In this document: piece after piece, positions 3,798 through 31,742 of the stretch
Numbering within the stretch: position 1 is the first letter of the stretch
Layout of the letters: each line of letters opens with the position of its first letter
Source: Chitinophagales bacterium
Lineage (GTDB): Bacteria; Bacteroidota; Bacteroidia; Chitinophagales; Chitinophagaceae
DNA: 35,502 nucleotides
Direction: 5' to 3'
Assembly (NCBI GenBank): GCA_026931325.1
Contig: JAIXLO010000034.1
Span: forward strand, 1 to 35,502
Made by a program: the position numbers and the translations under genes
The notes under the pieces: model-generated
Seen by the model: the letters and a program-made list of their open reading frames with translations, nothing else
The model's database searches: none
What the model was told of the DNA's origin: nothing

Positions 3798-3814
3798 TTG
3801 GCATATTTTTTGCA
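3798..3814 (+). promoter_or_regulatory. sigma-54-like promoter P1
   Basis: TTGGCATATTTTTTGCA matches the RpoN -24/-12 consensus: GG at 3800-3801 and GC at 3812-3813 with exactly 10 bases between. It lies just before P2 and upstream of the IF-1-like gene cluster. Confidence 0.5.
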
Positions 3815-3840
3815 GAACCGTGTTTGGCACGGTTCTTGCA
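3815..3840 (+). promoter_or_regulatory. sigma-54-like promoter P2 with hairpin
   Basis: TTGGCACGGTTCTTGCA (3824-3840) is a perfect match to YTGGCACG-N4-TTGCW, with GG 3826-3827 and GC 3838-3839. An 8-bp inverted repeat, GAACCGTG (3815-3822) and CACGGTTC (3828-3835), overlaps the -24 box and could be an operator or an RNA hairpin. The predicted start near 3851 falls at the conserved leader element. Confidence 0.55.
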
Positions 3841-3846
3841 AGCAAC

Positions 3847-3900
3847 GATGTTGGATCGCATCTTAGTAGGGCGCCAGCGCTATCGAAGGGAACGGCAACG
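3847..3900 (+). promoter_or_regulatory. GGATCGCATC leader element, copy 1
   Basis: GATGTTGGATCGCATCTTAG followed by a GC-rich hairpin (GGCG CCAG CGCT). It is one of four copies (others at 4778, 16240 and 31742). It starts about at the predicted P2 transcription start and ends at the next ATG, so it would be the 5' leader of the mRNA. An ATG in the element opens a small frame starting MLDRI. Confidence 0.5.
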
Positions 3901-4718: not shown

Positions 4719-4736
4719 TTTGGCACGGTTCTTGCA
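4719..4736 (+). promoter_or_regulatory. sigma-54-like promoter P3
   Basis: TTTGGCACGGTTCTTGCA has GG at 4722-4723 and GC at 4734-4735 with 10 bases between. The 17-base core is identical to P2. It has no upstream hairpin arm. Confidence 0.55.
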
Positions 4737-4746
4737 GCCTTGCGCA

Positions 4747-4772
4747 TGACCATGCCTGGCATGGTTCTTGCA
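4747..4772 (+). promoter_or_regulatory. sigma-54-like promoter P4 with hairpin
   Basis: CTGGCATGGTTCTTGCA (4756-4772) has GG 4758-4759 and GC 4770-4771. ACCATGC ctg GCATGGT forms a hairpin over the -24 box. Compared with P2 both arms have changed together (CGTG/CACG to CATG/CATG), so the palindrome itself is maintained. Confidence 0.55.
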
Positions 4773-4777
4773 AACAA

Positions 4778-4825
4778 GGATAACGGATCGCATCTAAGTA
4801 GGCGCCGAGCCAGTATGTAGGGACG
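4778..4825 (+). promoter_or_regulatory. GGATCGCATC leader element, copy 2
   Basis: GATAACGGATCGCATCTAAG then TAGGCGCC and a short hairpin (GGC GCCGA GCC). It lies immediately downstream of P4, with the predicted start near 4783, and runs up to the ATG at 4826. This copy lacks the ATG seen in the other three, so what is conserved here is the RNA or DNA sequence rather than a leader peptide. Confidence 0.5.
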
Positions 4826-6662: not shown

Positions 6663-6750
6663 TGCATGAGTATCCAATCTAGAGAAGGACGCGGTTTGTA
6701 AAACCACCGCCACTGGCTAAACAAGTAGGTGCAAATCCTACCTCATGCAC
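6663..6750 (+). tRNA. tRNA-Tyr(GUA)
   Basis: Acceptor TGCATGA/TCATGCA, anticodon loop TTGTAAA (anticodon GTA), class II variable arm (GCC/GGC) as in bacterial tRNA-Tyr, T-arm GTAGG TGCAAAT CCTAC. The anticodon stem GCGGT/ACCAC has one C-A mismatch, and the apparent discriminator is C instead of the usual A, so function may be reduced. Confidence 0.75.
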
Positions 6751-7528: not shown

Positions 7529-7600
7529 TGCCCATGAGCCGCGGAGCGTGGCAGAAAACTGTTAATTTTCCGAAGCAGGATGCAACTTCTTGATGGGCAG
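7529..7600 (+). tRNA. tRNA-Asn(GUU), copy 3
   Basis: Acceptor TGCCCAT/ATGGGCA, anticodon stem GAAAA/TTTTC with loop CTGTTAA (anticodon GTT), T-arm CAGGA TGCAACT TCTTG, discriminator G. The acceptor differs from the other two Asn copies. Confidence 0.88.
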
Positions 7601-7605
7601 CAAAT

Positions 7606-7674
7606 GAATTGGTCGACTAATAAATAAAAAGCGCTGTAAAGGCATTGATGGCGGTGCAAATTCTCCCCAATTTA
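7606..7674 (+). pseudogene. degenerate tRNA, Tyr-like anticodon
   Basis: Acceptor GAATTGG/CCAATTT and a T-arm-like GGCGG TGCAAAT TCTCC (one mismatch) frame a 37-base middle. It contains CTGTAAA, which would be a Tyr GUA loop, but its flanks do not pair. Probably a decaying tRNA. Confidence 0.4.
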
Positions 7675-8395: not shown

Positions 8396-8497
8396 GCGCT
8401 AATGAGTTTAATTAGGATTTAATTAGGATTATTAATTAACATGCCAACTACAGGATTTAATTGTTCTGCTTAAACGTTCGAGCTGTTTATTAGTGCT
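8396..8497 (+). ncRNA. tRNA-like RNA E1, no normal anticodon arm
   Basis: GCGCTAA (8396-8402) pairs with TTAGTGC (8490-8496), and a T-arm (TAAACG TTCGAGC TGTTTA, 8471-8489) is clear. The 68-base middle is AU-rich and holds no canonical anticodon arm. It has an AATTAA/TTAATT stem around ATGCCAACTACAGG. The same TGCCAACTA sits in the same position in E4 (16291), and both end TGCTCTA rather than CCA. Confidence 0.5.
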
Positions 8498-8619: not shown

Positions 8620-8901
8620 ATGATTAAATTTGAATATGAAGACAACACGTTATCTATAATAGATGGAAGTACAGAAATTGTTTTTTTAGATGTAAATGAT
8701 GATTTATGTAAACTATTTTTTCAATTTATAAAAGATAGTTATGCTAATAAATCAAGAGATGTTAAAAAATTTACAATAGATAAAGTAGATATTTATTTTT
8801 GTTATAGTGAAGGAATATATGAATTATTTTTTCATTTAAACACATTTTCAGTAAATGTAGTAATTGATAGAAATGATATTGAAAATATAAAATTAGCCTG
8901 A
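8620..8901 (+). CDS. small hypothetical protein
   Basis: A 93-residue protein, MIKFEYEDNTLSIIDGSTEI, made mainly of alternating beta-strand-like segments, with two aromatic strands (DIYFCY and YELFFHL). No family recognised; no membrane segment. Its last bases (GCC TGA) are shared with the acceptor stem of the tRNA-like RNA E2, so stop codon and RNA 5' end are linked. Confidence 0.55.
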   Translation: MIKFEYEDNTLSIIDGSTEIVFLDVNDDLCKLFFQFIKDSYANKSRDVKKFTIDKVDIYFCYSEGIYELFFHLNTFSVNVVIDRNDIENIKLA

Positions 8902-8963
8902 TTGAAAGGTAGCTTCATTGTATGCGCAGCAGTTTAAACGTTCGAGTCGTTTATTGGGCTCCA
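8896..8963 (+). ncRNA. tRNA-like RNA E2 with encoded CCA
   Basis: GCCTGAT pairs with ATTGGGC (two G-U pairs), followed by T and an encoded CCA (8961-8963). The T-arm AAACG TTCGAGT CGTTT is perfect. The middle is 33 bases, about 8 short of a tRNA: a possible D-arm (GAA AGGTAGC TTC) then 19 bases with no anticodon stem. Its T-arm region is homologous to that of E1. Confidence 0.5.
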
Positions 8964-10407: not shown

Positions 10408-13400
10408 TTAGGCACATTTTCCGCTTCCGCAAGCCATGCAAATCTGGCACCCATCTCTATATACCAATTCTGCCGAATTGCAGCTTGTGCATGTAACTCC
10501 ACTTCTTACTTTCATTCCTTCTTTAATATATTTCTTTAATATTCTAGAAATTACTTTATTAATATCTCCTATTCCACCATCTTTGCTTAGTTGCTCAACT
10601 AGAAAATCTACAGGAATTCCATGACGTAATGATGTAGATATCATTCTAGATGCCCAAGCCATTTCTTTATTGTCAAAAGTATTGATTATATCTTTTATAA
10701 TTAAATCTTCTCCATTTACATCTACATGCAAGTTATACTTGCCTTTGGTTACTTTTACAACTTTGCCTTTCATTGATTTGCTTGGTAATGATAATTGTTC
10801 TGAGTGACCCATGAACATTTCGTATGGAGCATCATTTAGTAGTGAAACAATAACATTATACTTTGTTCCATTTACTGATGCTTGGTGAATTTCACATGGC
10901 AATATGTTTGGACGTTTTGGAGCCATTACAGGAACTATTTCTTGTGGTCTTCCACTTTTTTCAACCTTCTCTTTCTTTGGTTCTGTAATTAATACTCCAT
11001 CTCTTGAGCCGTCTACATATACAGTAACTCCTTTTAGTCCTTTTTTCCAGGCATCTAAATAAAGTTTACTAACTACTTCAACTGGAGTTCCTTTTGGTAA
11101 ATTAATAGTAGATGAAATACTATGGTCAACATATTGTTGCTCTATTCCTTGTAATTCTACTCTCTTTTCCCAATTGATTTGATCGGATGTTACGAAATAA
11201 TCTGGTAACTCTGATTCTTCTGGCAAATTAAATTTATTTAAATAATTTCTAACATTTGAATGGAAGACTTTAAACTCTTGCCATTTATCTCCAACAACAT
11301 CTACGAAATCTATTCTAGATGACTTGTCATCGTAATTAATTTTCTTTCTTCTTGTATATGAGTTTCTGAATACTGGTTCAATTCCAGAAGAAACATTATA
11401 TGAATTAAATTCTCCTACTTTAGACACTATTGATACTGAGCCAGTTGGAGCTTGAGTTAGTATTGCAATATTTCTTCTTCCATACATTCTCATTCTTAAT
11501 TTTAGTTCTTCTGGCAATCTTTGAATAAATTCACAAGATTCTTCTAGATCATAATTATATACAGGGAATGCTCCTCTTGTTTTTGCTAATTCTACTGATG
11601 CACCATATGCCTCATCTCTTAGAGTTTTATATATTGAATCTATAACTTTTGAAGCTTCATCGGAATCATATCGAATACAGAGCTGAGACAATGTATCGGC
11701 TAGACCATGGGTTCCTAATCCTGTTCTTCTACCATCATGACCAGCTTGCCATAATTTTTTCCATAATCCTTTTTCATTATCGGATGAGCAAACGTTTATA
11801 ATTTTTTCAATTAATTCTAATTCTAGATCTACTAAATTATCTGCCATTTGCATTGCAGTTCTTACATCTTTTTTATACATTTCTAGATCAAAAAATGCGT
11901 CCTTTGTAAAGGCATTTTTTACATAACCTGTTAGATTTATTGAAATTAAACGGCAACTGTCAAAAGCCGATAAAGCTATTTCACTATTTCCTGAAATTAA
12001 TCCATTAGCTGTAAATTTATGATATTTTTCAACTTCTATACAGCCAACTTCTTTTATTCCTATTGATTTTATGGATTTTATTGTTACAAAATGTAATTCT
12101 TTTTCTGCTCTTTGTGGGACTATTTTTACTATCTTGTCTAAAATTTTTTGTTTGCTTTCAGCAATGAAGCCAATCTCGGATGAGAATTTTTTTAGATTAC
12201 TTAATCCGGTAATTGATAATCTATAACTATCTTCTGTTTTATATTCTTTTCCTCTAAAACTGGCAACTCCAGCCAATTTATTCAATCCTATTGACGATTT
12301 TATTCCAAATAATGTCAAAAGGTTTTTTACTTGGTGTAAAAGGCTTTTATTTATTGAAGTAAGTTGTATACAATATCTAGAGCTTGTCACAGTGTTCGTA
12401 ACAGTTCCATCGGCTGAAAAATAAGCAGATAAATAACCTTTTATAAATTCTTTAGAAAATTTAAATAGATATGGATTAAAGTCTTTTTTAAATTTCCAAA
12501 TATTCATTTCATACTTATTAACTAGATCTCTAGTTAACTCTTCTGATACAATTCTTTTTACATTATTCCCATTTAATTCATATGAATTAAGAGATACTGG
12601 GTATCCCATACTATTTACAATTTTTAACATTTTTTCTGCAACATCATACTCTTTTTTCCAAAAAGCTAAATATGTTGAAGGAAAAACAGCATCATTGGAT
12701 TTATATGATAAAGCTCCGTCGCCAGTAAGCCATCCAAGTATTAATCCTTCGTTATATGAGCCCTTATTTCCTAATTCAGGATTTGCATTATTGATACTAA
12801 CAGATATCCTATCTCCAACAGATAGGTCTTTTAGCTCCACAAGAGATGGGTTATCAAAAATAATTTTTGATCCTATCCTTGTACCTTTAATTTGCTCTAA
12901 TTTATGATTAGAAGTTATTTCTAATTTTTCTCCATTAGAGAATACGACTTCAAAAACTTCTGCTGTTCCTGCATTAAAGTATCCAGATGTTTTTGCCCAA
13001 ACTTTTTCTGAATCTATCCAAATTTCATCACTATTTGTTATTTCTTTTATTTCTTTTATTCCTTCTTTTGTTACTATAAACACTTCTGAATCTTGTGAAA
13101 AACAGCATGGATTTGTAGAAATTGTTTTAAACTGTGGGTAACAATTTGGTGGCAGATTATTAATAATATTATCCCACATCAACATGCCTGGTTCTGCTGT
13201 TTTTGTTGCCGAATTTACTATTACATCCCATACATCTTTTGCTTTTACTTTAGATGTTACTAAAGGTTTTCCATCTATAGGAAATCTTAGTTCATACTCT
13301 TCATCATTATCTACAGCTTTTAGAAATTCATCAGTTAGCTTGACAGAAATATTTGCTCCGGTAACTTTAGTTAAATCTTGCTTCATGGTTATGAATTTTA

Positions 13401-15267
13401 GAATATCTGGATGATGAACAGACATTGTGACCATTAGTGCGCCTCTTCGATTGTTTTGTCCAATCATTCTAGTTACATACGAGAAGAAGTCAGCAAATGA
13501 CCAAGCTCCGCTTGTTGTTTTTGCGGCATTATTTACTCTTGTTCCTTCTGGTCTTAAAGTTGAGATATCAATTCCCACTCCACAGTTATGAATATTAACT
13601 AATCCAAAATTTCCTGCATAAAAATTATTAGTATCTTCAACTTCAATGTCTATATAATTTGAAGAACCCTCATCTTTAGCAATTTTTTCTATCTTAACTC
13701 TTTGTGAAATTTCTTCTATTTTACTTGAAGATATTAAGCCATTTTTTTCAAATTCATTTAATGAACCAATTCCAGCCATATAGTTTTTATCTTTTCTTAA
13801 TAAGACCATACAAGCTGAAAGATTTCCTGTCTTTTTGCCATTAAAATTATTTTCATAATCATTTATGATTGAAAAATATTCTTCTTTAGATAAATATTTT
13901 TTATTTGAAAAATGTCTTACAGGCGAAGATTTCATTTTTTCAATCTTTTTGTCATGATGCATTATGTTTTTAAATAGATTTAAAATTTTATCAGTGGCAT
14001 GTATTGTTATACCGTACATGTCAGCTTCATTTTTTCTATCATGTCTTTGAGGGATAAAATATGTGTAGCATGATATTCCCTTGCTAGCTAAGAAGCAAGC
14101 AATTTCATCTATAATGAATGGCGTACAAAGTCTTATGGAAATTGTTTTCGAATCTCTTACATGACCATCGGTATCAATTAATCCTGCTATAAAGCTCCAC
14201 CAAAGATTTTTCTCTTTTACTATGCTAGGAACTTTGGCAATATATGTTTTTGATCCTATTTGATGATCAATTAATTTAACTATTTCTTCATTTATTGAGT
14301 TTGAGTTTGTATATTCCCAACACTTTGTTTTATAGTGTTTTCTAGTGGAAACACTATAATTTGAATTAGACTTAGTTAATTTATTAAATATATTTTTATA
14401 AGCTTCGATAACTTTTTCATTATCGCCTAATATTCTGAATCTATATTTATTTTGATGAAGTCCACAAGTGCCATCGCCTATATGGGCTCCAATAAACCAA
14501 CCCAATTCTAAATCTTCTTTTGAAGATTGAAGATCAAAGTTAGCATCGTTTAATTCTGGTTTAACACCGATGCAATTTTCGGTTAACTCTCCAGCGTTCT
14601 TGTATTCATAATCACCATTTTTATTAAAGGTTAAAACTGGATGTTTTTTAGATGTTTTTAGAATCGTGCCATTATCAAATTTTATACTGATTCTATCTTC
14701 TTTAGTCACTTCTGTATTAAATTTATTAAGTACTTTTTTAAATACTGATTTTCTTTTGGCTATATCAAAAGATAATACACTCATTCCAACTTCAACTTGA
14801 GAAATTGGAACAATTCCAAGTTCTTTAGTATTTACTAAAGTATTTTCTTCAACACATCTTCTTTTCATTAATTGAGCTAATTCTAAACCAGATGTCATAA
14901 TTCCTTCAACGCTATCTTCTGGAGAAGCAACAACGACACAATTAGAGGCGCTCATTACTTGATAAGTATTTCCGATAGCAGCCATAGGTGATCCTTGTGG
15001 AACAATTCTGGCAAAGTTTTTCATTGATGAAAAATACTCATTATACTTTTCATTATAATCAAAACCATATTTTTCTGAATCTATTCTAGCAAATTCTTTT
15101 GCTAATCTTTCATGTAAGCTATCTGGAGTAGCTTCTAAAATATTTCCATCAGAATCTCTAAGAGCATATTTGTCAACGAATACTTTGGCGGATAATTCTT
15201 CTCCATTAAAATATTGTTTTGATAGTTCAATTGCTTCGTCATATGAAAATGATTTTTTTGTTTCCAT
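10408..15267 (-). CDS. nrdJ: class II ribonucleotide reductase with two inteins
   Basis: A 1619-residue precursor; removing two inteins leaves about 822 residues, normal for adenosylcobalamin-dependent RNR, which makes dNTPs for phage DNA. Extein motifs in order: RIVPQGSPMAAIGN, then KRR-C joined to CGVGIDISTLRPEGTRV, GQNNRRGALM, HHPDILKFI, TGANISVKLTDEF, TNPC joined to SEIALSAFDSC, then ILTQAPTGSVS, EP.F...Y.RR, RHGIPVDFLV. The C-terminal CTSC...CQICMACGSGKC is the redox/zinc tail of NrdJ rather than NrdA. AGGAAATC precedes the ATG. With the 9415 gene it forms the only reverse-strand block here. Confidence 0.93.
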   Translation of the reverse strand: METKKSFSYDEAIELSKQYFNGEELSAKVFVDKYALRDSDGNILEATPDSLHERLAKEFARIDSEKYGFDYNEKYNEYFSSMKNFARIVPQGSPMAAIGNTYQVMSASNCVVVASPEDSVEGIMTSGLELAQLMKRRCVEENTLVNTKELGIVPISQVEVGMSVLSFDIAKRKSVFKKVLNKFNTEVTKEDRISIKFDNGTILKTSKKHPVLTFNKNGDYEYKNAGELTENCIGVKPELNDANFDLQSSKEDLELGWFIGAHIGDGTCGLHQNKYRFRILGDNEKVIEAYKNIFNKLTKSNSNYSVSTRKHYKTKCWEYTNSNSINEEIVKLIDHQIGSKTYIAKVPSIVKEKNLWWSFIAGLIDTDGHVRDSKTISIRLCTPFIIDEIACFLASKGISCYTYFIPQRHDRKNEADMYGITIHATDKILNLFKNIMHHDKKIEKMKSSPVRHFSNKKYLSKEEYFSIINDYENNFNGKKTGNLSACMVLLRKDKNYMAGIGSLNEFEKNGLISSSKIEEISQRVKIEKIAKDEGSSNYIDIEVEDTNNFYAGNFGLVNIHNCGVGIDISTLRPEGTRVNNAAKTTSGAWSFADFFSYVTRMIGQNNRRGALMVTMSVHHPDILKFITMKQDLTKVTGANISVKLTDEFLKAVDNDEEYELRFPIDGKPLVTSKVKAKDVWDVIVNSATKTAEPGMLMWDNIINNLPPNCYPQFKTISTNPCCFSQDSEVFIVTKEGIKEIKEITNSDEIWIDSEKVWAKTSGYFNAGTAEVFEVVFSNGEKLEITSNHKLEQIKGTRIGSKIIFDNPSLVELKDLSVGDRISVSINNANPELGNKGSYNEGLILGWLTGDGALSYKSNDAVFPSTYLAFWKKEYDVAEKMLKIVNSMGYPVSLNSYELNGNNVKRIVSEELTRDLVNKYEMNIWKFKKDFNPYLFKFSKEFIKGYLSAYFSADGTVTNTVTSSRYCIQLTSINKSLLHQVKNLLTLFGIKSSIGLNKLAGVASFRGKEYKTEDSYRLSITGLSNLKKFSSEIGFIAESKQKILDKIVKIVPQRAEKELHFVTIKSIKSIGIKEVGCIEVEKYHKFTANGLISGNSEIALSAFDSCRLISINLTGYVKNAFTKDAFFDLEMYKKDVRTAMQMADNLVDLELELIEKIINVCSSDNEKGLWKKLWQAGHDGRRTGLGTHGLADTLSQLCIRYDSDEASKVIDSIYKTLRDEAYGASVELAKTRGAFPVYNYDLEESCEFIQRLPEELKLRMRMYGRRNIAILTQAPTGSVSIVSKVGEFNSYNVSSGIEPVFRNSYTRRKKINYDDKSSRIDFVDVVGDKWQEFKVFHSNVRNYLNKFNLPEESELPDYFVTSDQINWEKRVELQGIEQQYVDHSISSTINLPKGTPVEVVSKLYLDAWKKGLKGVTVYVDGSRDGVLITEPKKEKVEKSGRPQEIVPVMAPKRPNILPCEIHQASVNGTKYNVIVSLLNDAPYEMFMGHSEQLSLPSKSMKGKVVKVTKGKYNLHVDVNGEDLIIKDIINTFDNKEMAWASRMISTSLRHGIPVDFLVEQLSKDGGIGDINKVISRILKKYIKEGMKVRSGVTCTSCNSAELVYRDGCQICMACGSGKCA
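11986..13104 (-). mobile_element. NrdJ intein 2 with LAGLIDADG endonuclease
   Basis: Precursor residues 722-1094 (373 residues), inserted right after the TNPC motif. It begins C-FSQDSEVFIVTKEG and ends FTANGLISGN before Ser of the C-extein. The endonuclease motifs are LILGWLTGDGALS and IKGYLSAYFSADGTV. The penultimate residue is Gly, where His is usual, so splicing chemistry may be slower or assisted otherwise. Confidence 0.88.
13585..14856 (-). mobile_element. NrdJ intein 1 with LAGLIDADG endonuclease
   Basis: Precursor residues 138-561 (424 residues), inserted between KRR and CGVGIDIS of the substrate/effector region. It begins C-VEENTLVNTKELGIV and ends FGLVNIHN with the next residue Cys, a standard intein boundary. 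The endonuclease motifs are LGWFIGAHIGDGTC and SFIAGLIDTDGHV. Confidence 0.92.
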
Positions 15268-15444: not shown

Positions 15445-15523
15445 GGGACCGTACCGGCTGTGCCTTCTAAGCATTAGTACCGTAACTGGATTTATGAGCG
15501 TTCGACTCGCTCCGGTCTCGCCA
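15445..15523 (+). ncRNA. tRNA-like RNA E3 (UCU loop) with CCA
   Basis: GGGACCG pairs with CGGTCTC, followed by discriminator G and encoded CCA (15521-15523). The T-arm GAGCG TTCGACT CGCTC is perfect. A hairpin GTGC CTTCTAA GCAT would give an Arg UCU anticodon, but it starts only 8 bases after the acceptor and leaves 21 bases before the T-arm. CCGG (15454-15457) can pair with CTGG (15486-15489), placing that hairpin inside an enlarged D-loop. It is either a rearranged tRNA-Arg or a different RNA. Confidence 0.5.
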
Positions 15524-16239: not shown

Positions 16240-16290
16240 ATGATGTTGGATCGCATCTGTACGTGCGCCTGAGCGCGTATGGGTGCTTAC
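16240..16290 (+). promoter_or_regulatory. GGATCGCATC leader element, copy 3
   Basis: GATGTTGGATCGCATCTG followed by a strong hairpin (GTGCGC CTGA GCGCGT). It starts right after a stop codon, with no sigma-54 motif upstream, and lies between a gene and the tRNA-like RNA E4. ATGATG opens a frame MMLDRICTCA then stop. Confidence 0.45.
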
Positions 16291-16389
16291 GCAGACTTGC
16301 TAAGTAGCGATTTTAATTTAATAATTTTGCGCTGCCAACTAGGCTATTAATTAAAATGTTTGTACTCCGTGCAATTCGGAGGGTCTGCT
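16291..16389 (+). ncRNA. tRNA-like RNA E4, homologue of E1
   Basis: GCAGACT pairs with GGTCTGC, and the T-arm CTCCG TGCAATT CGGAG is perfect. The 67-base middle has a small hairpin GCT AAGT AGC and a long AU stem (TTTTAATT-TAATA with TATTAATTAAAA) capped by TGCCAACTAGGC. E1 at 8396 has the same order, including TGCCAACTA, and the same TGCTCTA end. No anticodon arm or CCA. Confidence 0.5.
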
Positions 16390-16416: not shown

Positions 16417-16959
16417 ATGAATTCTATCCAAGAAGATATTTGTGCTCTTAAAGATATTACTAAAAAGCAAAAGAATATTGAAGCAGAAATGTTTGGAGTA
16501 ATTCAAAGGGAACAGTTGCTAGAAGCTCAGCGGAAAGCTGGAGTAAATTTTACTCAAATGTTTATGACTCTTTCTGATGAGCAACTAGAAGGATTGATTT
16601 TTGCTAGGGCAGTAGCTTTGGCAATAAGTGGAGAAAAAACTCTTATTCCTTCTGCCAAAGAATTTGTAAAAACTACGGTTTCTGGCGATGGAGTCAATAT
16701 AATTAATATTGATTCAAAAAAGTCTAAAAAGAACTGTAAAGTTGACGCCTTTAAATTTAAAGAAATAATTGATAGAGAAATTGCTAAAAATAAAGATAAG
16801 CAAATTGAGCAATCTACAGCCATTAATTTGGCAATTATTGAATTGGGAGCGAATACCAATAGATGCAAATATCTAATTAACTCTTTTATTAAAGATGGTT
16901 TTTATATTAAAAAAGATGGATTTATTTTCAATAATCCATTTAAGAAGGATGACAAATAA
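16417..16959 (+). CDS. hypothetical protein with C-terminal HTH-like region
   Basis: A 180-residue protein. The N-terminal third is an amphipathic, probably coiled-coil helix (MNSIQEDICALKDITKKQKN). The middle is LSDEQLEGLIFARAVALAIS. The last ~70 residues (IDREIAKNKDKQIEQSTAIN, then a hairpin FYIKKDGFIFNNP) look like a winged helix. GTAGGTGAC before the ATG is a good site. It follows leader copy 3 and E4, which would both be in its 5' leader. A regulatory DNA-binding role is possible but not shown. Confidence 0.5.
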   Translation: MNSIQEDICALKDITKKQKNIEAEMFGVIQREQLLEAQRKAGVNFTQMFMTLSDEQLEGLIFARAVALAISGEKTLIPSAKEFVKTTVSGDGVNIINIDSKKSKKNCKVDAFKFKEIIDREIAKNKDKQIEQSTAINLAIIELGANTNRCKYLINSFIKDGFYIKKDGFIFNNPFKKDDK

Positions 16960-17021
16960 TATTAAAAGTATTTGAATAGATTTTACATTTAAGATTATAA
17001 AAATAAATTTGGATAATTAAA

Positions 17022-17033: not shown

Positions 17034-17048
17034 GAAAAGGTGAATAAT

Positions 17049-17537
17049 ATGGCTAAAATGAATCTACTAGAAACTTTGAAGAGTGATGCACAAGAAGCTG
17101 CTTGGCAAACCGCCGCTGAAACTGCCGCTAAGGTAGTTCAGAAGACTGTTGTTAGTATTGCCAATAATAAGGCTGGTCCTGATGGTGGGGCACTAGTGGC
17201 AAGTATTATTGATACTCCTGCAGGGCTAGCACTTATTCAGCTAATTGCTGGTATTGCTGTTACTCAGATTCCAGGAGTATCTGATGATCCTAGAGCAGCA
17301 AAGCTAGGAACAAAACTACGCCAGAATGGTATGGCTGGCGGCATGGGACTAGTAGCTGATGAGGTTCTAACAAATCTAATTCCAAGTCTAACTGAGGTTG
17401 TAAATGCTCTACCTCCAGCGGAAGAGTCTAGAGTAAGAGTTGAAGCTCCTAAAGTTGAAGAAAAACAGCTTACTACCGATGATGAGGCAATTGAATCGGT
17501 TGAGAAAGCTCAAGGAAAGCGTCGCGCTCAGGTTTAA
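17049..17537 (+). CDS. shared C-terminal-domain family, stand-alone member
   Basis: A 162-residue protein consisting almost only of the domain found at the C-termini of the proteins at 29893, 32229, 33203 and 34416: SDAQEAAWQTAAETAAKVVQ, then a hydrophobic stretch GLALIQLIAGIAVTQ, then LRQNGMAGGMGLVADE. Glycine-rich small-residue packing and the hydrophobic helix suggest membrane association or a helical bundle. AAAAGGTG precedes the ATG at 17049, preferred over GTG 17040. The codon use is the least AT-rich of the five, so this may be the highly expressed founder. A 12-bp inverted repeat brackets the gene. Function unknown. Confidence 0.6.
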   Translation: MAKMNLLETLKSDAQEAAWQTAAETAAKVVQKTVVSIANNKAGPDGGALVASIIDTPAGLALIQLIAGIAVTQIPGVSDDPRAAKLGTKLRQNGMAGGMGLVADEVLTNLIPSLTEVVNALPPAEESRVRVEAPKVEEKQLTTDDEAIESVEKAQGKRRAQV

Positions 17538-17554: not shown

Positions 17555-17558
17555 GAGC

Positions 17559-17575
17559 GCGTATGCGCAATACGC
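17559..17575 (+). other. hairpin competing with E5 acceptor
   Basis: GCGTAT GCGCA ATACGC is a perfect 6-bp hairpin. Its 3' arm uses bases 17572-17575 of the E5 acceptor strand, so this hairpin and the E5 tRNA-like fold exclude each other. Confidence 0.45.
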
Positions 17576-17634
17576 CTTTAACTTAACTGGCAAAGTAATA
17601 TTTTATGAAGATTCGAGTTCTTCAAGGCGTACCA
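17572..17634 (+). ncRNA. tRNA-like RNA E5 lacking anticodon arm, CCA
   Basis: ACGCCTT pairs perfectly with AAGGCGT, then A and encoded CCA (17632-17634). The T-arm GAAGA TTCGAGT TCTTC is perfect. The middle is only 28 bases: TA, a D-arm (ACTT AACTGGCA AAGT, with the usual GG), and a 10-base linker AATATTTTAT where an anticodon arm should be. The final A of CCA is the A of the ATG of the next gene. Confidence 0.6.
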
Positions 17635-17933
17635 TGAATTCATTTAAACTTAATGGTGTAGTTTTTACTAAAGATCCATTTTCTAAAAGAATCTTTGAAC
17701 CAAATAGTAATTTATTTATCTTGGTCAGAAGATCTAAAAAATATAAAATATGTAAAATAAAATTTATATGTTTTTCACATGAATCAATCGCTAATAATAA
17801 AATTAAAATATCGCCAATATTTTATTGTCATGATGCAGATCATACAGAGCACGATAAAGATAGTATTGAAAAAGTATCATGCGATTCTTCTAAATTAAAA
17901 ATTATTAAAGAAAATTTAGAAAAATTGGGGTGA
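17634..17933 (+). CDS. MKSFKL-family small protein 6
   Basis: A 99-residue paralogue of the 1907-3790 array: MNSFKLNGVVFTKDPF at the start and the family helix IIKENLEKLG at the end, with a variable middle. Its ATG overlaps the CCA of tRNA-like E5, so processing of E5 at its mature 3' end would destroy this start codon. AAGGCG in the E5 acceptor could act as ribosome-binding site. Function unknown. Confidence 0.6.
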   Translation: MNSFKLNGVVFTKDPFSKRIFEPNSNLFILVRRSKKYKICKIKFICFSHESIANNKIKISPIFYCHDADHTEHDKDSIEKVSCDSSKLKIIKENLEKLG

Positions 17934-29792: not shown

Positions 29793-29878
29793 GGAAGCTA
29801 AACCATGCTAGGTGCTGGCGTTCACTGGAAATGAAATGGATGGGTAAAACCATTGGGCTTCGACTGCTCTGGCTTCCG
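29793..29878 (+). tRNA. tRNA-Ser(GGA)
   Basis: Acceptor GGAAGCT/GGCTTCC (last pair T-G), D-stem CCA/TGG with GG in the loop, anticodon stem TTCA/TGAA with loop CTGGAAA (anticodon GGA), long variable arm (ATGG GTAAAA CCAT), T-arm TGGGC TTCGACT GCTCT with one outer mismatch, discriminator G. Confidence 0.85.
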
Positions 29879-29892
29879 CAATAGGTGAAATT

Positions 29893-30888
29893 ATGGAAAT
29901 AGATTATAATAAAAATTATTCCGTTGATGAATTAGAATCTTTTGGGTACAAAAATTTAAAGTTATTGGCAAATAATTCCAAGTCTTATTTTACATTAAAT
30001 AATCTATACTATATGACCGGCAATGATTATTTAATGTATGATTGTGTATTTAATCCGTTGTTTAATTACAATAAAGATTTAGATTATTTTATACAACAAA
30101 ATAACAAAAATATGCCTTATTTGAAAGAGATGTTAGCTAAACGAATAGGCAAAACAAAAGCCCTTGAAACAGAAGCTATATTAAAAACCATTTCAAGTAA
30201 GCAAATTTCATTGCTCGAAGCCTGCTCTAATTTTAATTGCTTTCATAAAACATTATTGACGTTTGATCTTCCAGAAGCGGCACTAATTAACATTATTAAA
30301 AATATTGATTTACATGATTTAAAAAATATAAGCAATAGAAAAGATATAACTAAAGAATGTTTGGAGAAAATATTACTAAGGGTTGATAATACTACTTACA
30401 GTAAATTAGAAAAAGCGGAATTTAAACAAGAGTTACGTAAAAAAATAGAAAATTTTAAATCTTCAAAACTCACAAATGTATTGAAGGATGATTTTATTGA
30501 GGCTAGTTATAAAACGGCTTCAGAGCAAATTATTAAATTGGTATTTGATTTTATTGTTAATTATGCTGAAAAATCAAATAAGGAAAATATAAAAAAAGTA
30601 TTATTAACAGAGCAAGGTAAATATATTTTAGCTTTTATAGCTGGCGTTATATTGGATCAATCAGATAATGCACATGCTAAAAAAATTGGACAAGCATTTA
30701 GAATCCAGGCTATGTCAAAAATTGGAAATGAGATGATGGACGCTGTTACAAACGAAGTAAAGCTTTTTAAAGATATATCAAAAGATATTTCAAAAATGAA
30801 AATAAGAGTTCCTGCTCTTGAAGATCTTGGCATAGATGAAGATGTTTTTGATATTAAAACAATCTTTAATGAAACTTTAAAAGTTTAA
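29893..30888 (+). CDS. modular protein with shared C-terminal domain (1)
   Basis: A 331-residue protein. The N-terminal ~190 residues are helical and repeat-like (segments such as SLLEACSNFNCFHKTLLTFD and RKDITKECLEKILLRVD), recalling short HEAT or leucine-rich repeats. The C-terminal domain (about 196-300) is the family DFIEASYKTASEQIIKLVFD, hydrophobic GKYILAFIAGVILDQ, and FRIQAMSKIGNEMM. AGGTGAAATT precedes the ATG. Genes 32229, 33203 and 34416 carry the same C-terminal domain with other N-termini. Function unknown; a membrane or scaffold role with exchangeable partner domains is an inference. Confidence 0.6.
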   Translation: MEIDYNKNYSVDELESFGYKNLKLLANNSKSYFTLNNLYYMTGNDYLMYDCVFNPLFNYNKDLDYFIQQNNKNMPYLKEMLAKRIGKTKALETEAILKTISSKQISLLEACSNFNCFHKTLLTFDLPEAALINIIKNIDLHDLKNISNRKDITKECLEKILLRVDNTTYSKLEKAEFKQELRKKIENFKSSKLTNVLKDDFIEASYKTASEQIIKLVFDFIVNYAEKSNKENIKKVLLTEQGKYILAFIAGVILDQSDNAHAKKIGQAFRIQAMSKIGNEMMDAVTNEVKLFKDISKDISKMKIRVPALEDLGIDEDVFDIKTIFNETLKV

Positions 30889-30905: not shown

Positions 30906-31742
30906 ATGATTATTACTAGATGTGCTCCATCAAATACAGGCTTTTTTCATATTGGAACTGCAAGAACATTATATTTTAATTATTTGTTTGCGCGTTCACA
31001 AAATGGAAAACTTATATTACGAATAGACAATACTGACGTTGATAGAAGTGAGCAAAAATTTACAGATTTAATTTATGAAACTATAAGTAAATTAAATATA
31101 GAATTTGATCTAACATTCAAACAGTCAGAAAGATTAGATAGATATAAAGAAATATCAGAAAGTTTAATATCTAAAGATCAGGCTAAAAGAAATGAAGATA
31201 ATTCTATTTCTTTTATTTATAATGGTGATGATATTTATCAGTGGGAAGATTTTGTTGGCGGAAATATAAAATGCTCCAAGCAAGAAAATCTCATCTCTAG
31301 AGAATTTATAATTATAAGAAATAATGGGCTGCCAACATATAATTTTGCTACGGTAGTAGATGATATTGATTACAATATTTCTCATATTATACGTGGTACA
31401 GATCATATACCAAATACATTAAAGCAAATATTTTTGTATAAAGCTTTGACAGACAGCTTACCAAAATTTGGTCATATTGGACTACTTACAAAAAATGGTA
31501 AAAAAATATCAAAGCGTGATAAAGAAGCTGATTTTCTATTATTATTGAATGAATATAAACCGGAAGCTATTCTTAATTATATATTAAAACTTGGATGGAA
31601 TTTACCCGATCCTAATATAGATCAAAAATTACCGTTAATTAATAAGCAAAAGGCAATAGAAGTGTTTATGAATGGAAAGATGAAGTCTTCTCCGTCAAAT
31701 GTAGATATGAATAAACTTACGTGGCTTAATAAAAAGTATTAA
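30906..31742 (+). CDS. truncated glutamyl-tRNA synthetase
   Basis: A 278-residue class I GlxRS catalytic core. RCAPSNTGFFHIGTART is the HIGH region (His15), VDDIDYNISHIIRGTDHIPN the tRNA acceptor-binding part, and GKKISKRD (200-205) an intact KMSKS-type loop. It ends at KLTWLNKKY, where normal GluRS continues with the ~140-residue anticodon-binding domains. The plan resembles GluQ-RS, which glutamylates queuosine tRNA, but KISKR is better kept here. Possible substrates are the phage tRNA-Glu(UUC) or its tRNA-like RNAs. Confidence 0.88.
   Translation: MIITRCAPSNTGFFHIGTARTLYFNYLFARSQNGKLILRIDNTDVDRSEQKFTDLIYETISKLNIEFDLTFKQSERLDRYKEISESLISKDQAKRNEDNSISFIYNGDDIYQWEDFVGGNIKCSKQENLISREFIIIRNNGLPTYNFATVVDDIDYNISHIIRGTDHIPNTLKQIFLYKALTDSLPKFGHIGLLTKNGKKISKRDKEADFLLLLNEYKPEAILNYILKLGWNLPDPNIDQKLPLINKQKAIEVFMNGKMKSSPSNVDMNKLTWLNKKY

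Follow-up and report, generated by a model that had tools for sequence, protein, structure and literature searches.

To our knowledge, natural tRNAs that lack an arm are missing the D-arm or the T-arm, and it is through the anticodon arm that a tRNA serves translation. The tRNA-like domain of tmRNA has an acceptor and a T-arm but no anticodon arm. We know of no full tRNA elbow in the C4 and M3 RNAs of phages. In the literature, tmRNA is described as 'lacking an anticodon' (PMC2481249), and a review of non-canonical tRNAs presents the anticodon arm as closely conserved and, in the available part of its text, gives no case without it (PMC7609411). The mascRNA and menRNA elements, derived from MALAT1 and MENbeta, are tRNA-like elements within longer RNAs. 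They retain the elbow, which serves RNase P and RNase Z, and an anticodon-equivalent stem, and their D-arm is reduced (PMC11693755). YrlA, a bacterial Y RNA, has D-, T- and acceptor-like arms and a basal Ro-binding stem, and needs a Ro protein (PMC8394870). RNase P also cuts phage RNAs that are not tRNAs, the C4 antisense RNA of phages P1 and P7 and the M3 RNA, as well as mRNAs (PMC11143913). Huge phages encode many tRNAs and aminoacyl-tRNA synthetases, including a glutamyl-tRNA synthetase, GluRS (PMC7162821). A literature search that left most of the subscription literature outside its range found no fitting published case of a phage tRNA-like RNA without an anticodon arm.

We analysed a contig of 35.5 kb (C181; 35,502 nt, hereafter the window) from a 3.1-Mb draft assembly of 182 contigs. 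It carries a short tRNA-like element, E5, between two ORFs on the same strand (Table 1). All 16 base pairs of E5 are Watson-Crick: seven in the acceptor, four in the D-stem (ACTT/AAGT, 17581-17584 with 17593-17596) and five in the T-stem. The D-loop AACTGGCA (17585-17592) provides A14, A15, G18, G19 and A21, and with U8, A9, Y48, T54, T55, C56, R57, A58 and Y60 the set of elbow bases is complete, the positions being named by what we take to be their equivalents in standard tRNA numbering. Thus E5 has the 7-bp acceptor, the 5-bp T-stem with a TTCRANY loop and the GG in the D-loop of a tRNA, and no anticodon stem-loop, its place being taken by the 10-nt linker.

E5 shares with an ordinary tRNA (RF00005) the geometry of the acceptor, D- and T-arms, the elbow bases and the C-N-A tail, but without an anticodon arm it cannot decode. 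The trimming is opposite to that of mascRNA and menRNA, since E5 has a 4-bp D-stem, no anticodon-equivalent stem, and a position at a start codon. It differs from tmRNA in having no mRNA-like part, no G3-U70 and a canonical D-stem, and from YrlA in having a CCA end. An antisense role like that of C4 is not indicated.

Table 1. Features of the E5 locus, the phage GluRS core and the rearranged tRNAs. Coordinates refer to the window unless an accession is given.
Feature	Position	Strand	Remarks
E5, anticodon-armless tRNA-like element	17572-17634	+	63 nt including CCA
E5 acceptor 5' strand	17572-17578	+	ACGCCTT, read from sequence
E5 T8 A9	17579-17580	+	
E5 D-arm	17581-17596	+	4 bp, loop AACTGGCA
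E5 linker	17597-17606	+	AATATTTTAT, 10 nt instead of anticodon arm and variable region
E5 T-arm	17607-17623	+	GAAGA TTCGAGT TCTTC
E5 acceptor 3' strand	17624-17630	+	AAGGCGT; AAGG is the Shine-Dalgarno-like run of the 17634 ORF
E5 discriminator and CCA	17631-17634	+	A73 at 17631, CCA at 17632-17634; last A starts the ATG
Rival hairpin	17559-17575	+	GCGTAT-GCGCA-ATACGC; overlaps acceptor 5' strand
Leader hairpin	17557-17568	+	GCGC-GTAT-GCGC; compatible with the tRNA-like fold and predicted alongside it
Upstream ORF	17040-17537	+	165 aa; belongs to a family of paralogues (window, 5; C75, 2 aligned)
Downstream ORF	17634-17933	+	99 aa; small-paralogue family, MKSFKLAGVKF type start
GluRS catalytic core	30906-31742	+	278 aa, no anticodon-binding domain
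Rearranged tRNA	15445-15520		
Rearranged tRNAs	LR745206 344211-344291, 388064-388143, 387977-388055		
Rearranged tRNAs	LR756502 390979-391058, 401725-401803, 401809-401887		
Rearranged tRNA	LR756500 118368-118444	-	

ARAGORN, run on the whole window, called no gene at E5, and two whole-window scans with RF00005 missed it, the filters being stricter for longer input. A search of 301 bases with the same model gave 41.0 bits (E 1.4e-7; the gathering cut-off is 29 bits), with the anticodon arm skipped. We also made a covariance model, R2, from five ordinary tRNAs of this phage with the anticodon arm cut out and E5 excluded. Run on 418,929 bases, that is the window and a second phage-like contig of the assembly (C75), R2 gave E5 41.6 bits (E 3.4e-8), rank 4 of 19 rows. 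With both models, which are blind to E5, the element scores among the real tRNAs of this phage. A further model, R1, contains E5, so that its 60.5 bits for E5 are not independent. A descriptor of the armless shape (7, at least 3 and 5 pairs; a linker of 3-14 nt; a D-loop starting with A and containing GG; TTCRANY) matched once in the same 418,929 bases, at E5, and gave no second armless element in the window or C75. On 40 first-order Markov sequences of that length it matched twice, before U8, A21 or the tail was required.

Simple folding energy is not decisive, with z-scores of -1.5 and -2.1 for E5 alone and -0.8 with flanks. A perfect T-stem plus acceptor, G-U allowed, occurred 18 times in 60 window-sized Markov sequences, or about 0.3 per sequence, so this part alone could arise by chance; none of the 18 was followed by CCA. 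Based on the Rfam score, the descriptor count and the R2 score, a chance origin of the full E5 is excluded. An assembly error would need to have removed precisely the anticodon arm and kept all else, and we regard an explanation by chance arrangement or misassembly as very improbable. The tRNA-type top half without an anticodon arm, proposed in a first-pass annotation of the window, is real by its pairs, its elbow bases, the two model scores and the descriptor search.

The arms that E5 shares with YrlA allow it to be read as a bacterial Y RNA, a tRNA-like domain docking an exonuclease on a Ro protein. We give this reading hardly any weight. No TROVE/Ro protein was found in the assembly, including the phage contigs, by a search whose control was positive in 1 of 14 genomes; the assembly is 99.5% complete and may not be that of the phage's host. 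The seven RNA-family matches of the region (E up to 10) include no Y-RNA family, and Rfam presumably holds one. Folds of 123 and 103 nt gave no long 5'/3' basal stem.

The window carries phage-like genes for a ribonucleotide reductase that contains intein and homing-endonuclease domains (10408-15267), an NAD ligase and a GluRS core, and ARAGORN found 11 tRNAs and no tmRNA in it. C75 (383,427 b, 355 of them unread) has a GC content of 28.4%, compared to 28.9% for C181. It holds paralogues of window proteins, a TerL-like gene and, judged by eye, a portal-like gene; about 350 residues inside the TerL (C75:155624-158527) look by eye like an intein. From these features, the two contigs look like one huge phage genome.

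The searches revealed no close relative of this phage. There was no DNA match to phage records. When IMG/VR was scanned with the proteins of the two ORFs beside E5, of the GluRS core and of the NAD ligase, no relative appeared, and two DNA patterns had no match. The TerL matched one IMG/VR contig over query residues 135-548, a range that by eye is mostly intein. Samples of the class, the phylum and the order, which overlap, comprised 394, 394 and 395 other genomes, and none of these had the portal-like protein. Distant homologues were found for single genes only.

Sigma-54-like boxes (TTGGCAY-N5-TTGCA) occur 30 times, all on the forward strand, compared to 0-1 in each of 20 Markov sequences. 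A leader motif, GGATCGCATCT, has 34 copies, also all forward, and 11 of these lie exactly 12 nt behind such a box. The sites are found at 3798-3870 and 4720-4800 in the window, and in C75 mostly at 296-364 kb. These motifs suggest that the phage makes use of sigma-54 together with a fixed leader hairpin at the 5' end. All six matches to sigma-54 activators in the assembly are on contigs other than C75 and C181. Scanning GTDB contigs for the leader motif gave one match, inside a gene that looks cellular by eye.

We searched other genomes for armless elements of the E5 kind. Model R1, run over four other huge phages and one IMG/VR contig, where stricter filters apply to so much sequence, gave 87 rows and no further armless element in the four phages. 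Nine rows span the full model in at most 62 nt, six of them inside ordinary ARAGORN tRNAs. Three candidates were rejected: LR745206 388091-388140 and LR756500 118368-118428 lie within the rearranged tRNAs described below, and LR745206 272707-272742 (16.3 bits) has by eye no tRNA body. The descriptor found no armless element in 246,042 bases of other records. A pattern with the geometry of E5 matched 79 IMG/VR contigs, none of which has more than 11 of the 16 pairs that are all formed in E5; no acceptor in the best 25 of the 79 has more than 5 of 7 pairs.

Some elements of other kinds were observed on the way. Fourteen IMG/VR contigs (e.g. L124:11639-11701) carry a D-arm, a T-arm and CCA without an anticodon arm or an acceptor 5' strand; R2 scores these weakly, at 15.3-17.3 bits in 13 of the 14 (E 0.07-0.24). 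The element in L124 starts directly behind an ORF that by eye is tyrosine-integrase-like, and its 3' end resembles what we take to be a tmRNA-type attachment site. Even shorter than E5 is C75:85019-85067 (L008:5019-5067), with a 7-bp acceptor and a T-arm TTGGGTTCGATTCCCAA and only 17 nt between them. It has a C-A-A tail, lies 14 nt before an ORF, shows no clear D-arm, and scores 16.6 bits with R1 and 16.9 bits with R2. Three tRNA-like genes in the window are not listed by ARAGORN (29793-29878, 6664-6749 and 7529-7600): one Ser(GGA)-like with a long variable arm, the anticodon being read by eye, and two with TGCAA-type T-loops. The odd elements E1, E2 and E4 (8397-8496, 8896-8960 and 16291-16389 in the window) have unusual middles, and acceptor and T-stems with some G-U and no broken pair.

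Among 30 rows listed by a further scan, mostly ordinary tRNAs or chance matches, are seven rearranged tRNAs from four huge phages, chosen by eye for a common TAACGG-like stretch. Their order is acceptor, TA, 3 nt, anticodon arm, 3 nt, TAACGG-like D-loop, T-arm and acceptor. The two 3-nt strips pair with each other in all seven (six of six by script and one by eye, the script's pattern having matched an earlier site there), compared to four of seven in the best other register tried. The pairs are CGG/CCG, CGT/GCG (with one wobble), CCC/GGG, CAG/CTG, CGA/TCG twice and ACC/GGT; since they vary among members, the 3-bp helix covaries. In three of the seven, the anticodon stem has a single mismatch at its far end. 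A covariance model of the seven, in which two rows are shifted by one column in the anticodon arm, detected an eighth member (LR745206 387977-388055; 53.9 bits, E 1.1e-10). This member is known from the model only; its T-loop is altered and one of its acceptor pairs is broken. An ordinary tRNA came next, at 33.0 bits, and nothing in LR745208 and the IMG/VR contig scored above 28.5 bits. E5 is not a member, its 28.2 bits being in the range of ordinary tRNAs. All eight anticodons are Arg (UCU/UCG) or Ile (UAU/GAU). The class resembles a tRNA with the anticodon arm enclosed by its D-stem, and it merits a study of its own.

The 3' end of E5 follows a rule of this phage. Each of the 23 ordinary phage tRNA genes tabulated has a C directly behind the discriminator, and 20 of them have C-N-A there, compared to a background of 4.9% of positions. 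The scans that listed these genes made no use of those 3' positions; tRNAs outside the descriptor list were omitted from the count, and by eye three of four such tRNAs fit, C75:303030 being the one that does not. Among eight odd tRNA-like elements, a class of our own in which two (C75:331974 and 344358) have anticodon arms, seven including E5 have C-N-A, and E1 is the sole breaker of the rule. Full CCA occurs in one of the 23 ordinary tRNAs versus three of the eight odd elements. The encoded CCA emphasized earlier is thus present, but as evidence it is weaker than it seemed, because it is one draw from the C-N-A rule. That E5 obeys the rule indicates that it was kept under, or inherited from, the same end processing.

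The last A of CCA is also the A of ATG 17634, as the first-pass annotation had pointed out. The run AAGG (17624-17627), within the acceptor 3' strand, is the only Shine-Dalgarno-like run before this ATG, and by its position it is probably the Shine-Dalgarno of the 99-aa ORF. The start of this ORF aligns with the starts of its paralogues, and the start site lies inside E5. Among 30 tRNA or tRNA-like genes compared, a chosen list scored for ATG ORFs only (C75:302914 and 303030, for example, were left out), E5 is the only one with the next ATG 3 nt past the discriminator; in the others the ATG is at least 14 nt away, or there is no ATG ORF within 400 nt. Upstream, E5 begins 34 nt after the stop of the 165-aa ORF at 17537. 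Neither ORF has a Pfam or PHROGs match. One C75 paralogue of the upstream gene (16524-16982) is followed by 32 nt with a hairpin and then a tRNA-Tyr gene at 17015, and no tRNA follows the other (30014-30472). The 11-mer GAGCGCGTATG is found just upstream of both E5 (17555-17565) and the odd element E4 (16271-16281), and its core GCGCGTATG is confined to these two places within the 419 kb read; before E4 it pairs inside another hairpin.

A rival hairpin overlapping the acceptor 5' strand had been thought to exclude the acceptor fold. The hairpin is present, but once the whole of E5 is made it is the predicted loser by about 4 kcal/mol (-17.3 when forced, versus -21.3 for the tRNA-like fold). 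In a 103-nt Vienna fold, six acceptor pairs checked have probabilities of 0.92-0.99 and the rival pairs at most 0.01; T-stem pairs reach 0.92-0.95 and the weak D-stem 0.38-0.43. The Shine-Dalgarno-like run is paired in the dominant predicted fold. Because the pair probabilities favour the acceptor fold, the rival hairpin would matter at most during transcription, where it could form first.

The phage has, as was claimed, a GluRS core; it has no anticodon-binding domain, PF00749 being its only Pfam match at a threshold of E 0.001. A second GluRS core without this domain, of up to 290 residues and 36% identical to that in the window, is encoded in LR745206 (L002:19989-20861). The search matched 39 records, and four others that were read through (L030-L033) are full-length synthetases. 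These cores, together with the complete elbow and CCA, are consistent with E5 being a trans-acting 63-nt small RNA, excised by RNase P and ending in CCA, that serves as carrier, substrate or decoy, for example by being charged by the phage GluRS core or by occupying host enzymes that bind tRNA. We consider this unlikely. Excision would ruin the start of the next gene, the GluRS already has an ordinary tRNA-Glu in the phage (7694-7767), and E5 has G3-C70 rather than the G3-U70 for AlaRS. Rather less probable still is a dedicated anticodon-less RNA, matured like a tRNA at both ends, bearing CCA and acting as a switch or as an aminoacyl carrier for the GluRS core.

In our view, two readings of E5 remain: a control switch, or the relic of a tRNA lost very recently. 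A non-functional relic would be an ordinary phage tRNA that lost its anticodon arm by a recent small deletion and is otherwise undecayed. Several other tRNA-like copies in this genome are in odd states: one acceptor pair is broken at C75:323592 and two at C75:310514, the copies at C75:331974 and 344358 are compact, and 7606-7674 in the window is a weak Tyr-like copy (anticodon by eye). No close relative shows conservation of E5. Against a relic, all 32 paired and about 14 elbow bases of E5 are intact. For these approximately 46 sites we estimate that neutral divergence since the deletion would have to be below about 6.5 percent (exp(-46d)=0.05). Moreover, the acceptor fold takes in the start site of the following gene. 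The relic is a serious possibility, nearly as likely as the reading that we rank slightly above it.

That reading, which we favour tentatively and at less than even confidence, is that E5 is a tRNA-derived element that lost its anticodon arm and acts in cis in a polycistronic phage transcript, as a start-site mask and RNase P site. A role in cis needs no decoding and would account for the loss of the anticodon arm alone. In brief, E5 folded as a top half would lock AAGG in the acceptor stem beside the start of the 99-aa ORF, and this ORF would then be off or low. RNase P could cut at 17571/17572, as at other tRNA-like structures. The leader hairpin would then cap the upstream mRNA at its 3' end, and the downstream gene would lose its start site. 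Early in transcription, the rival hairpin would delay the top-half fold, and some ribosomes might load.

Several observations point to such a role in cis: model scores within the range of real tRNAs, fully paired stems with an intact elbow, the C-N-A flank, the unique position of the ATG, the high probability of the acceptor pairs hiding the Shine-Dalgarno, and an ORF start that agrees with those of its paralogues. The upstream paralogue in C75 that likewise precedes a hairpin and a tRNA, and the M3, C4 and mRNA substrates of RNase P, are also consistent with it. It should be noted that, with no close relative, there is neither covariation nor conserved placement to support the cis role, that the second C75 paralogue has no tRNA after it, that the overlap with the Shine-Dalgarno could be a coincidence in a compact genome, and that the D-stem is weak and the energy z-scores are modest.

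In E5, the part of a tRNA that processing enzymes read is separated from the part used for decoding. It would be a small in vivo test case for how RNase P, the CCA enzyme, EF-Tu and synthetase cores act on a top half. If the carrier reading were true, E5 and the GluRS core would form a natural 'operational code' pair, a top-half tRNA with a catalytic-core synthetase. If instead E5 masks the start codon, it would be a new use of the tRNA body as a gene switch.
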